DNA from: an uncultured Candidatus Saccharibacteria bacterium
Lineage (GTDB): Bacteria > Patescibacteriota > Saccharimonadia > Saccharimonadales > Saccharimonadaceae
Assembly: GCA_946415265.1 (NCBI GenBank)
Contig: CAMKRV010000011.1
Span: 1 to 32,156, forward strand
DNA: 32,156 bases
Direction of reading: 5' to 3'
Shown: positions 11,188-14,197 of the stretch, one piece after another
How the letters are laid out: every line of letters starts with the position of its first letter
Position numbering within the stretch: position 1 is the stretch's first letter
Notes under the pieces: generated by a model
Databases searched by the model: none
What the model saw: the letters and a program-made list of their open reading frames with translations, nothing else
Told to the model about the DNA's origin: nothing
Made by a program: the position numbers and the translations under genes

Positions 11188-12216
11188 CTAAGTTAAAGTA
11201 TAAGAGTTTTTGTCTACTTTCTTAAACAATGCCTTATTTTGCAAATTTAGTAGGATAGTAGTCTCTTTTACCTTGCGTACTTTTAGCACCTGCTTCACGA
11301 TTTCTTCGCGTGTTAGCGGTTTATCTACTTTTTCTAGGATAGATTTAATAATGTCAGAGATGGTTCCCTTCTTGTATCCCCACGAACTTAGCGCATAAAT
11401 TCCTCGCCCGATTAGCACGAAACGGTCGTCTTTAATTAGCTCGTTGTGGATTGCCTGGATTGTTACATTCTTGCGTTTGAAATTACTTTTAGCAATCTCC
11501 GCCGCAATATCCGAAAAATGCATTGGCTCCTTCTTAGTTTCTAGTATCACAAAGATTTTATCGCGGATGTTCTTAGGGTTTACTGCTGGCCATTTGGCAA
11601 GGCCCCACACGCCGTTTAGGGTAGCAAGTAGCTTAGATATTGACGCCACGGCTTTAATATAGTTAGGATGCTCATAATCTAGCTTATTGTCAAGCTCGTC
11701 GATAGTCATCGGCTTTTTGTTTTCTTTGATTACCTTTACGACTTCGTCTACCTTTTCGCGGATAGCCTTACTATCGCCATATTCGGCAATACCTACAGCG
11801 GCATTATAACGATCATTTTCTTCCACCACAGTAAGACTCTTAGAGAATGTAGCTATAAAATAAAGGCCGGTCTTTTCTGACGCGGTAGCGGTACGATTAT
11901 AGACTTTGTCGGCGAGGTCAGAAATCTTTGCCACCCGACCCATCTCAGTTAGATTACGAATTAAGATTTTTTCAGCAGCAGCGAGTTCTGGGATTTGATT
12001 CTCCTCAGCGGAAATTTGGAGACGAATAAGAATTGCTTTCTCGAGCTGCCTAACCCGTTCCCTAGTAATTGACAACATTTCGCCAATTTGTTCAAGGGTT
12101 TCTTTAGTTCCGGTCAATCCGAAGCGTCGAGAAATGATTTCCTTTTCACGATCTTGTTCGATAATTTTTAGACTGCCGGAGATTGCATTTTTGAGGATTT
12201 CCGCATTTTGGTCCAT
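11188..12216 (-). CDS. Sigma-70 region 4-like and HARE-HTH regulator
   Basis: 342 aa. Residues about 20-62 look like sigma factor region 4 (EKEIISRRFGLTG, then the helix-turn-helix LEQIGEMLSITRERVRQLEKA), the module that reads the -35 box. The rest holds repeated winged-helix units: one near 150-205, a typical HARE-HTH at about 213-272 (KEPMHFSDIAAEI, ending GRGIYAL), and another near 280-340. HARE-HTH also occurs in the RNA polymerase delta subunit. No sigma region 2 is present, so it cannot melt a promoter alone. I infer a transcription or chromatin-type regulator that binds polymerase or DNA. It has its own promoter and is followed closely by the TraG-like gene. Confidence 0.8.
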   Translation of the reverse strand: MDQNAEILKNAISGSLKIIEQDREKEIISRRFGLTGTKETLEQIGEMLSITRERVRQLEKAILIRLQISAEENQIPELAAAEKILIRNLTEMGRVAKISDLADKVYNRTATASEKTGLYFIATFSKSLTVVEENDRYNAAVGIAEYGDSKAIREKVDEVVKVIKENKKPMTIDELDNKLDYEHPNYIKAVASISKLLATLNGVWGLAKWPAVNPKNIRDKIFVILETKKEPMHFSDIAAEIAKSNFKRKNVTIQAIHNELIKDDRFVLIGRGIYALSSWGYKKGTISDIIKSILEKVDKPLTREEIVKQVLKVRKVKETTILLNLQNKALFKKVDKNSYTLT

Positions 12217-12263
12217 CAGTATTCTTCCTTATCTCACCACTGTTAATATTGTTAATTTTACTT

Positions 12264-12292
12264 ATAATATCATAGTTTTATTATAATGTCAA
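12264..12292 (-). promoter_or_regulatory. Promoter of the HARE-HTH gene
   Basis: The minus strand reads TTGACA, 17 bases, TATTAT. This is a perfect -35 box and a good -10 box at the ideal spacing. It lies about 48 bases upstream of the start codon. It is the clearest full -35/-10 promoter in the window. Confidence 0.75.
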
Positions 12293-12423
12293 CTACGATT
12301 TCTAATAAATTCCTATACTATTGTAGCATATTTTTTACATTTGCAAAAGAAAATGTGGAAACATAAGCTTTATACGGATTTTTATTGCTTGAAGAACGTT
12401 TTTTATTTAATTTTTCATATGCG

Positions 12424-12432
12424 TGGTATAAT
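12424..12432 (+). promoter_or_regulatory. Extended -10 promoter of the candidate ncRNA
   Basis: TGGTATAAT fits TGnTATAAT. Transcription would start about 7 bases downstream, almost exactly at the first base of the closing stem at 12439. Confidence 0.65.
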
Positions 12433-12438
12433 AAAAGA

Positions 12439-12591
12439 GCTATACATTATTATTTACAAAGTATTTTTTATAATATGCTTTTATGAGTATTTTACTCTGC
12501 AATTCAAATGGCGCCGTAAGGAACCTTGTTGCAGAGACAAAATACTTTGTATCTAGTGATAATGTATAGCACCCCTTGCGGTGCCATTTTT
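12439..12591 (+). ncRNA. Candidate structured ncRNA, 6S-like architecture
   Basis: About 150 bases between an extended -10 promoter and an intrinsic terminator. The closing stem pairs GCTATACATTAT (12439-12450) with ATAATGTATAGC (12559-12570), 12 perfect pairs. After an asymmetric internal loop, TACAAAGTATTTT (12455-12467) pairs with AAAATACTTTGTA (12539-12551), 13 perfect pairs. A long single-stranded stretch then faces a hairpin CTCTGCAA/TTGCAGAG (12495-12502 with 12529-12536). A long rod with a large bubble and an apical hairpin resembles 6S RNA, which binds the RNA polymerase holoenzyme, but I cannot match it to a known family. A short ATG frame inside (12341-12556) has no ribosome binding site and is rejected. 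It could instead be a leader of the FISUMP gene downstream. Confidence 0.6.
12569..12591 (+). terminator. Terminator of the candidate ncRNA
   Basis: GCACC pairs with GGTGC around a short loop and is followed by CA and five T. Its first two bases are shared with the closing stem of the ncRNA, so the two foldings touch. Confidence 0.6.
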
Positions 12592-12664
12592 GTTAATCCC
12601 CATTAATATAGTGGCACCACGTGGGGGAGTAGTAGTAATCATATATACATAAGTGAGGTAAAAG

Positions 12665-14197
12665 ATGGGCCATAAAGTAAAACAATCTTCAGTAAAAAGT
12701 AGAATAGATTTCTTCTACTATGCTTTCCGCAACATTCTTTTAGTTAGTTTGCCTATTTTAGTTATATCTGCTTTAGTGTTAAGTTCTTTTCATTCTTCTG
12801 CTGTTACTAGTGGTGCTTCAGTGGATAATTTAACGTTGTCTTTGCCTACTTCATGTACTTTATCTAGTGCTATTAACAGTCCACATAGTACTACAATGGT
12901 TAGTGGACTATATGAAGAGAATATAGGAAAGACTACTATTACTACATTATGCAATGATGGTAATGGATATGCTATATATGCTAGTGGTATTAGTAATGGT
13001 ATAGTAGGCAATAACACATTAATTAGTAGCGTAAATAATAATCATAATATTAGTACTGGTATTTATGACCCAGATAATAACAATAATCCCTCTTCTTGGT
13101 CTATGAAGCTAGATGGTGCAACTATAAACAATGACAGCGGTGATAACTCATCCACTGCTCCGCCTACTATATCACCCGCTTATACTTCCTATAATGTAAT
13201 ACCTAATACTTGGACTAGAGTAGCAGAAAAAGAGTCTGGAACTACAGATATGATTAAGGGATCGTCTTTTACTACTACTTATGCTGTATATACTTCCCCT
13301 GCTCAGCATGCTGGTACTTATACTGGGCAAGTAGCTTATCTGCTAGTGCATGGCAGCGGGGATGATAATCCTAACCCATACTTTATGCAGAATGTAGCAG
13401 AATGGAAAGACACTTTGCAGGAAGAACAAAGTATGCAAGCAATAGATGCCAGAGACGGCAAGCAATACTGGGTCACGAAGCTAGCAGATGGACATATCTG
13501 GATGACGCAGAACTTGGATTTTGATATAAACGCTAATATCATACTCAGCTCCCAAACTACAGACTTAAATGTGGTCTACGATTCTAGCACTGGACAATAC
13601 GCGGAATATAATAATGGATATACAGAAAGTAATGGAGTAATATATTGGAAGCCAGCTAGTAGTGCCACTACTATAAACTTCCAGAATAATGGACCCATTT
13701 CTGGTTGGCAGAATAGTAATACTGCGCCATATACTGCTAGCAAGACAGACGGTACTGAAACAGGGCATGCTTCACTAGGTAACTATTATAACTGGACTGC
13801 AGCTATAGCATCTAATAGCTCTTCTTCATTAGCGCAAAATACAGTAAGTGATATATCTAAAAACCCTAAGAACTCTATATGTCCTAAAGGATGGAGATTA
13901 CCTACTATGTCTAATCAGTCCGAAACAATACCTGGTTCTACTAATGAATTGCCTAGACTAAATTATTTATATAACAACGTATCTGTAGCCCCACTGTTTT
14001 TTAAAAAGTCTGGATATGCAAACGCTTCCCTAAATCAACTCGATATCGAAGGAATATATGTTACCAGTTCTAGCTATTCCGGTGTCGGGGTTTGGGGGGC
14101 AGCTCTGAGGGCTGATAATAGATTCACAATAGACCAATGGAGTAGCGGCTACAATGGAAGAAGAGGTGGTTGGTCTGTTCGCTGCATAGCTAGATAA
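12665..14197 (+). CDS. FISUMP-domain secreted surface protein
   Basis: 510 aa, complete. A basic N-terminus is followed by a signal anchor or signal peptide at about 22-41 (ILLVSLPILVISALVL) and a Ser/Thr/Asn-rich extracellular region (50-235). The FISUMP domain then runs to the end: AIDARDGKQYWVTKLADGHI, WMTQNLDFDI, NYYNWTAAIASNSS, ICPKGWRLP and a final GGWSVRC. ATG lies behind GAGG. It is a paralogue of the partial gene at 1-1097. The exported FISUMP proteins of this group have no proven role; surface attachment or host contact is a reasonable inference. Upstream, 12598-12626 can form a hairpin (CCCCA/TGGGG) in the untranslated leader. Confidence 0.85.
   Translation: MGHKVKQSSVKSRIDFFYYAFRNILLVSLPILVISALVLSSFHSSAVTSGASVDNLTLSLPTSCTLSSAINSPHSTTMVSGLYEENIGKTTITTLCNDGNGYAIYASGISNGIVGNNTLISSVNNNHNISTGIYDPDNNNNPSSWSMKLDGATINNDSGDNSSTAPPTISPAYTSYNVIPNTWTRVAEKESGTTDMIKGSSFTTTYAVYTSPAQHAGTYTGQVAYLLVHGSGDDNPNPYFMQNVAEWKDTLQEEQSMQAIDARDGKQYWVTKLADGHIWMTQNLDFDINANIILSSQTTDLNVVYDSSTGQYAEYNNGYTESNGVIYWKPASSATTINFQNNGPISGWQNSNTAPYTASKTDGTETGHASLGNYYNWTAAIASNSSSSLAQNTVSDISKNPKNSICPKGWRLPTMSNQSETIPGSTNELPRLNYLYNNVSVAPLFFKKSGYANASLNQLDIEGIYVTSSSYSGVGVWGAALRADNRFTIDQWSSGYNGRRGGWSVRCIAR

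Follow-up and report, generated by a model that had tools for sequence, protein, structure and literature searches.

The stretch 12424-12591 of the window (the whole 32,156-nt stretch of DNA analysed, from an uncultured Candidatus Saccharibacteria bacterium) lies just upstream of a gene for a FISUMP-domain protein, and was originally predicted, from its letters alone, to encode an independent RNA of about 150 nt with its own promoter and terminator and a layout resembling 6S RNA. The question it raises is whether such an RNA is a product in its own right, and of what kind, or whether it belongs to the gene behind it. We argue that it is probably a cis-acting transcription-attenuation leader RNA that has been expanded into dozens of switches, each private to its locus, a reading to which we give a probability of about 0.6.

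A long rod behind an extended -10 promoter

The minimum free energy of 12424-12591 is -55.9, against -29.8 ± 3.5 in 200 dinucleotide shuffles, none of which was as good (z -7.4). The stacked perfect helices of the original prediction are real: P1 has 16 pairs and the second helix 13, with a 3-nt bulge between them. Above the second helix the 5' side is U-rich; a small hairpin and a 9-pair helix follow, and the rod ends in an apex that has a GUAA loop, the apex strand (A) being mostly unpaired in the predicted fold. Six nucleotides separate the extended -10 from P1. The parts of the locus, with the evidence for each in brackets, are these:

12424-12432, plus strand: extended -10 promoter element TGG-TATAAT, TGGTATAAT (sequence; conserved before other rods)
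12439-12454, plus strand: 5' arm of P1, pairing with 12555-12570, a different sequence at other loci (fold; P1 covariation in 55 copies)
12455-12467, plus strand: 5' arm of the second helix, pairing with 12539-12551 (fold)
12464-12469, plus strand: U-run on the 5' side; the matching 5' stretch in single-copy relatives holds strand x, which pairs with A (TTTT count in rods; x:A in 18 rods)
12495-12503, plus strand: 5' arm of the upper helix P3, pairing with 12528-12536 (fold)
12506-12521, plus strand: strand A, AAATGGCGCCGTAAGG, the apical region with the GUAA loop, complementary to T (A:T pairing tests; duplex energy)
12528-12536, plus strand: 3' arm of P3 (fold)
12539-12551, plus strand: 3' arm of the second helix (fold)
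12555-12570, plus strand: 3' arm of P1 (fold)
12569-12573, plus strand: T5, GCACC, 5' arm of a short local terminator-like hairpin, overlapping P1 by 2 nt (terminator scan)
12574-12591, plus strand: strand T with its U-tract, CCTTGCGGTGCC-ATTTTT, serving as 3' strand either in the local hairpin or in A:T (the 23-nt stretch 12569-12591 recurs in the genome)
12611-12620, plus strand: D, GTGGCACCAC, a second, partly T-complementary stretch downstream (sequence)
12665-14197, plus strand: gene for a FISUMP-domain protein of 510 aa (P0001) with a hydrophobic N-terminal stretch (TIGR02145, 42.9 bits against a cut-off of 41.65)

The extended -10 that had been proposed at 12424-12432 is present, and the same element recurs before other rods. 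We collected 118 rods (114 distinct) by an exact T stretch, keeping those whose P1 is perfect over 10 or more pairs. A -10 that matches TATAAT in five or six of its six positions lies within the 26 nt that surround the rod start in 117 of them, against 36.0 ± 4.6 in shuffles, and in 91 the -10 is preceded by TGn, against 1.9 (largest 5) when the same stretches are shuffled. Control stretches about 50 nt further upstream gave 27 and 2 respectively. A -35/-10 scan of the window does not list the TGGTATAAT element, which has no -35. The 3' end of the short RNA would be expected at the U-tract of strand T.

Copy number and distribution

The 23 nt at 12569-12591 occur 28 times in the same genome at up to three mismatches, 20 of them exact, while the reversed control occurs nowhere; the copies we read show the same kind of -10, followed by a rod with a sequence of its own. 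A covariance model built from 55 rods (R1) matches this genome at least 30 times (all of the 30 candidates that were scored), and these copy numbers are minimum values because the shared stretch after T breaks the assembly. In this genome a T copy lies no more than about 250 nt from one end of each of the contigs C4, C8, C13, C15, C16, C18, C19, C20, C21, C22 and C24. Elsewhere, the 18-nt T stretch is found, at up to one mismatch, 38 times in genome G056, 43 times in G468 and 35 times in G469, counts of which a few may be A copies.

Within the genus, R1 is positive in 57 of 147 sampled genomes (own included) and in 35 of 95 among the good genomes, with between one and at least 21 matches per positive genome. 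An exact scan of named genomes returned at least 94 stretches, and 74 of the 80 titles listed are Candidatus Saccharibacteria, many of them from the ruminant gut. As a plain DNA query the rod matched five genomes of a different set of 99, own included, partly through short, chance-like pieces; and the A..T pattern, searched over 379 genomes of the phylum, matched only the genome of the window, because T varies elsewhere. G001, a close relative, lacks the element at the corresponding place. Neither form's exact T pattern had any match in viral_contigs, and a phage origin was rejected on that count.

Stems of free sequence

The original prediction called for covariation in the helices, and it is there. 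Over its 15 pairs, P1 is intact in 95.7% of cells in the 55 rods; taking P1 together with two apex pairs, the figure is 96.1%, against 70.4% shuffled, with 225 double-changed cells against 62.8. The covariation score over these pairs is 0.744, against 0.235 shuffled (0 of 500 as high); the P1 columns were picked on the same alignment, and sliding them by one to three columns lowers the score to 0.05-0.15. These and the following tests are permutations among related copies, not computed on a tree, and some rows are near-duplicates. The rod sequence thus appears to be free as long as pairing is kept. Among 31 clusters at the same chromosomal place in related species, many keep the promoter and P1 and swap the inner stem (read by eye).

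Two further regularities are seen in the rods. Of 88 rods, 79 have TTTT on their 5' side, where shuffling gives 27.5 ± 3.9. Of the wobbles in 103 distinct P1 helices, 141 are U.G and 24 are G.U, and they are commonest 10-11 nt from T, the perfection of P1 and the unvarying T in this count, as in the count of A departures below, following from the way in which the 118 rods were selected. The lengths of the arms on either side of the bulge are negatively correlated (Spearman -0.29 over 76 of the 88 rods, a value biased by the bound of the regular expression); a fold-back of the rod at its U-rich bulge, which would bring A to T with the rod intact, is unsupported by this and was set aside.

Pairing between strands A and T

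In contrast to the stems, strands A and T are constrained. Their duplex in the window is worth -26.6 kcal/mol. Across 66 copies (72 aligned matches less one opposite-strand echo and five with gaps or indels; L197/L118 and L215/L241 are near-identical rows) 768 of 792 A:T pairs are kept, against 748.5 ± 2.5 when T is dealt among the copies, a value reached in none of 10,000 trials. Compensatory changes occur at three positions: T4=A is found with A9=T in L148, L149, L215, L241 and L190, and T6=T with A7=A in L212, L236 and L190. The correspondence is not complete, 10 of the 29 copies with a variant T being mismatched at a changed position.

The same constraint is seen within single genomes. We tested 80 of 88 copies found in five multi-copy genomes, seven low-scoring ones and one opposite-strand echo being excluded, and did not choose A by a motif: a stretch fixed at 60 nt was searched for its best duplex with the copy's own T and with foreign T alike. 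In 77 of the 80 the copy's own T is better than the average of the other copies' T, and in each genome none of 5000 permutations did as well. Mean duplex energies with own and with others' T are -22.9 and -19.6 kcal/mol in G023, -23.9 and -19.3 in G516, -23.6 and -19.8 in G041, -24.5 and -17.4 in G052, and -24.2 and -19.0 in G506. A:T is therefore kept copy by copy, which fits a switch acting in cis better than a network acting in trans.

Such a network is the first alternative to be weighed. The product of about 150 nt could be a trans-acting small RNA whose A binds the T of other loci's leaders or RNAs, so that surface genes cross-talk. The putative promoter and U-tract would suit it, as would the mostly unpaired A in the apex and the free-standing copy L216 described below; and since 20 of the 28 copies in this genome have the exact 23-nt stretch, one A fits many T. 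Where T varies within a genome, however, A keeps to the T of the same copy, something that a network in trans would not call for, and we consider this explanation fairly unlikely.

The manner in which A departs from T is also informative. Among the 114 distinct rods with one exact T, A departs 186 times from the perfect complement; 181 of these departures are G.U-compatible and five break the pair, which points to pairing of RNA rather than of DNA. The perfect complement itself (GGCACCGCAAGG) is A in none of the 114 rods, every A having at least one G.U or mismatch, as if full A:T pairing were avoided.

A:T would have to form at the expense of the rod. The best fold of 12438-12591 is computed at -52.2 kcal/mol, and P1 (-19.2) with A:T (-26.6) amounts to less than this even before loop costs, so that the computed energies favour the rod and A:T would need a trigger or a kinetic route.

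The local terminator-like hairpin

The terminator of the original prediction is only partly borne out. A hairpin GCACC/GGTGC, T5 with the 3' arm of T, is present at the single terminator-like site of the window scan, 12569-12584 plus the T-run (one found, 0.3 expected), but it is no longer than 5 bp, and some relatives that keep A:T have lost it. These are L300, L315 and L372, which lack T5 and have A:T intact at -22.0, -24.1 and -23.3 kcal/mol; with T5 lost, A:T is their only terminator-type helix, if those copies terminate. Of 5000 permutations, 296 in G023, 8 in G516, 3642 in G041, 447 in G052 and none in G506 pair T5 with the 3' arm of T at least as well as the real copies do, so that the local hairpin is clearly cis-specific in two of the five genomes, G516 and G506, and not clearly so in G023, G041 and G052. 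It stands in most copies read and could be the sole terminator.

D, a third copy of the A motif, lies about 20-40 nt past T in most multi-copy leaders read. The cis constraint on T:D varies by genome (2132, 99, 817, 59 and 0 of 5000 permutations in the five multi-copy genomes).

A single-copy form in related genera

Over 101 genomes of the family R1 matched 15, three of the same genus and 12 of other genera; in the latter it matches once in 10 genomes and twice in two. Most of these matches have in common GTCTTA...TAAGAC, an A with GGCACCGCATA, and CACC-TTGCGGTGTCG-TTTTT. RNAalifold, run on 11 of the single-copy forms, gives A:T as a consensus helix of 14 pairs unprompted, and in L261-L266 T is altered and A altered along with it. 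A model built from these forms (R2) matches 9 of 332 genomes of the phylum, seven belonging to the same family and one, G064, to a different family of the order, the ninth, G384, being within the class but outside the order; it has no match in the genome of the window.

In 18 rods of the single-copy form, which exclude the near-duplicates L247, L267 and L269, L248 and the same-genus loci L244 and L245, A:T averages -20.5 in cis and -16.3 in trans (0 of 5000). A second pairing appears here: the 5' strand x pairs with the 3' half of A at -10.3 in cis and -8.0 in trans, with 0 of 5000 permutations as good and 16 of 18 rods better in cis. These figures leave out the upper helix; a looser version agrees but partly caught the neighbouring helix, for example in L250 and L252. 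In the single-copy relatives, then, x would compete with A:T for strand A, and two exclusive pairings, x:A and A:T, together with a U-tract make up the layout of a transcription attenuator. In the five multi-copy genomes x:A gave no cis signal, nor did a pairing of A with the U-rich bulge in rods of the multi-copy kind; in these rods A:T competes with the rod and with T5.

Three single-copy forms (L264, L266 and L269) lie about 0.84 kb before a gene read by eye as a large serine recombinase (YARKSTTSEDRQASSIEDQ), and small membrane proteins that by eye look VirB2/TrbC-like follow L250 and L253.

Gene context

Of the 53 rods followed by a complete first ORF, 44 have as their next protein, on the same strand, one with a FISUMP-type R[CS] C-terminal pattern, as defined by our own regular expression; 51 further ORFs run off the locus and are uncounted. 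Among the nine other first ORFs are some that are short or broken, ileS at L057 (by Pfam) and, by eye, a probable transporter gene at L093. Five proteins were tested against profile models, and all five reach the NCBIfam FISUMP cut-off, one by 0.05 bits, while one reaches that of the Pfam FISUMP model. In the window the locus is preceded by a minus-strand gene with Sigma70 region 4 and HARE-HTH domains (P0002), and past P0001 lies, also on the minus strand, P0003, read by eye as DnaE.

The independence of the RNA in the original prediction is only partly borne out. With 44 of 53 rods preceding a FISUMP-type gene it is best read as a leader, one that may end early as an RNA of about 150 nt; at L216 the next gene is convergent, and a few copies of this type look free-standing. 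Copies without a co-directional gene (L216), or in front of other genes (ileS at L057), fit a free RNA better.

A leader might also serve a simpler end. The rod could act as a plain 5' UTR stabiliser that shields surface-protein mRNAs from decay, with the hairpin of T5 weak and mostly read through and A:T an accessory. The 5' end would be sequestered in P1, and the element precedes a gene with an RBS-like stretch, both as this explanation would have it; against it, the cis covariation of A:T beside the U-tract and the x:A pairing of the relatives call for a switching role, and it is in our view unlikely.

Comparison with known RNAs

None of the 4227 families of Rfam release 15 exceeds its gathering score anywhere in the window; at E<=10 there are four matches only in 12200-12800, all far below their cut-offs, and in 29 further loci only tRNAs pass. 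This, together with the covariation, supports the claim that the structured RNA is new and has a promoter and a 3' U-tract of its own. A search of the literature, with most subscription journals outside its scope, listed no paper on this RNA.

The likeness to 6S RNA, which had been part of the prediction, was not supported. A polymerase-binding RNA of this kind would share with our element the long rod, the internal unpaired region or bulge and the apical hairpin, and the place is vacant in so far as the Rfam 6S model (RF00013) exceeds its cut-off in none of 20 genomes of the lineage and has no match in the genome of the window (control: 4 of 14 well-known genomes). But RF00013 has no match at E<=10 in 12200-12800, there are at least 30 copies linked to surface-protein genes, and the constrained strands A and T, acting in cis, resemble a termination switch and not an open-promoter mimic; that the element is 6S-like is very improbable. 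A weak 6S-like match in another family of the order (L270, G061:C51:16563-16716; 32.4 bits against a cut-off of 46.4) is possibly the true 6S of the lineage.

Two other families were suggested by motifs. Strand A resembles the T-box core, UGGNACCGC, and T is its complement adjoining a U-tract. The T-box riboswitch (RF00230), considered for UGGCACCGC, has no match at E<=10 at this stretch of the window nor at the gathering score in 13 loci; it differs in that the U of UGG is often C in strand A and that L057 is the only aminoacyl-tRNA synthetase among the downstream genes seen. The apex looks SRP-like, with a GNRA loop after CC and then GGAAGC, and was rejected as such when Rfam gave no SRP match.

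The closest likeness that we see is to attenuators. The trp-type leaders and the antisense-controlled leaders of pT181 and pIP501 are transcription attenuators with alternative strands, and the present element shares with them a promoter, exclusive pairings, a 3' strand that runs into a U-tract and a gene downstream. As features of sequence, promoter, structured leader, U-tract and gene follow one another here in that order, and the exclusive pairings covary (A:T in five genomes, A:T and x:A in the 18 rods). The element differs from these attenuators in that its rod sequence is free and changes from locus to locus, in that dozens of copies stand in one small genome, and in the distance of about 50 nt, with a long rod between, from A to the T that follows it. 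We class it as an attenuator-like leader of a family without a match in Rfam release 15.

A proposed model of attenuation

In proposing how the leader works, we start from the observed structure, covariation, cis pairing, copy number and gene context, and infer from the sequence where transcription starts and ends, that there is switching, and its direction and signal. The extended -10 would set the start of transcription, just upstream of P1, and the emerging transcript would fold into the long rod, with strand A in its apex. T, once made, would have two possible partners, the short arm T5 beside it and the A of its own transcript; A, for its part, would either remain in the apex, paired with x in the single-copy relatives, or pair with T. 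These exclusive pairings would decide whether polymerase stops at the U-tract, leaving the RNA of about 150 nt, or reads through into the surface-protein gene. That A:T is kept where T5 is lost makes it the more likely arrangement that A:T is the terminator-type helix and the rod its antagonist, the opposite polarity being the less likely. In this genus the leader would then have multiplied to dozens of copies, each private to one locus.

The wider significance can be stated tentatively. The rod may be a mechanical switch that is free of sequence and counts by its shape only, its letters drifting or being exchanged without restraint, with A:T and the U-tract making the decision, and 30-40 locus-private copies of it, each matched to a T of its own, may allow a large, recombining repertoire of surface proteins to be expressed independently or one at a time; this is possible, though we hold it with clearly less than even confidence. 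Cultured Saccharibacteria live on other bacteria and have genomes near or below 1 Mb, and to our knowledge the regulation and variation of their surface proteins is largely an open question. If true, the proposal would supply an RNA-based counterpart of the promoter-inversion or expression-site systems for surface variation, in a minimal and probably host-dependent bacterium. An RNA class that has no match in Rfam 15, occurs dozens of times and is linked to a large and variable surface-protein family would be a main regulatory device, and an extreme case of structure kept without sequence and so missed by sequence searches. Strands A, T and x make the model directly testable.

Gene replacement and an alternative at the level of DNA

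L133 and L143 are 92% identical as far as about codon 30 and 90% identical beyond the gene; in between there is a single match, of 63 nt. Comparing the window with L157, the rod, its upstream flank and the end of the next gene occur in both, and the FISUMP gene between them aligns only in its first part and in one stretch of 77%. At orthologous sites, FISUMP gene bodies have to all appearance been replaced between conserved flanks, as in recombining surface-antigen families.

The rod, A, T and D might for that reason serve the exchange of surface-gene cassettes as DNA, as recombination or mobility hairpins of the attC kind. The replaced gene bodies (L133/L143 and, in part, the window and L157), copy numbers that vary widely between genomes, the three copies of the A/T/D motif, and the three relatives near a gene read by eye as a large serine recombinase are all in keeping with this; attC sites are likewise hairpins kept in structure rather than in sequence, and adjoin exchangeable genes. 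The details argue otherwise. A tolerates G.U but hardly C.A (181 against 5), and P1 prefers U.G to G.U, each of which is an RNA signature; conservation extends to the promoter and the U-tract; and what is constrained is A and T rather than the rod ends. By eye, no integron R box (GTTRRRY) follows T, where GTTAATC, GTATACG, GTATGAC, ATGTACG and others stand. We keep a DNA-level element as a weak, quite improbable alternative.

The rod with a FISUMP gene is also found in rabbit-gut MAGs titled Oscillospiraceae or Clostridia (L069, L073, L091, L116, L120 and L134), which have 2-4 T-like matches per genome of 2.2-3.0 Mb, some of them A copies, and hence about 1-3 rods each. Either transfer between phyla or mis-binning would account for them; L091 carries a zinc-ribbon repeat gene that looks Clostridia-like by eye.
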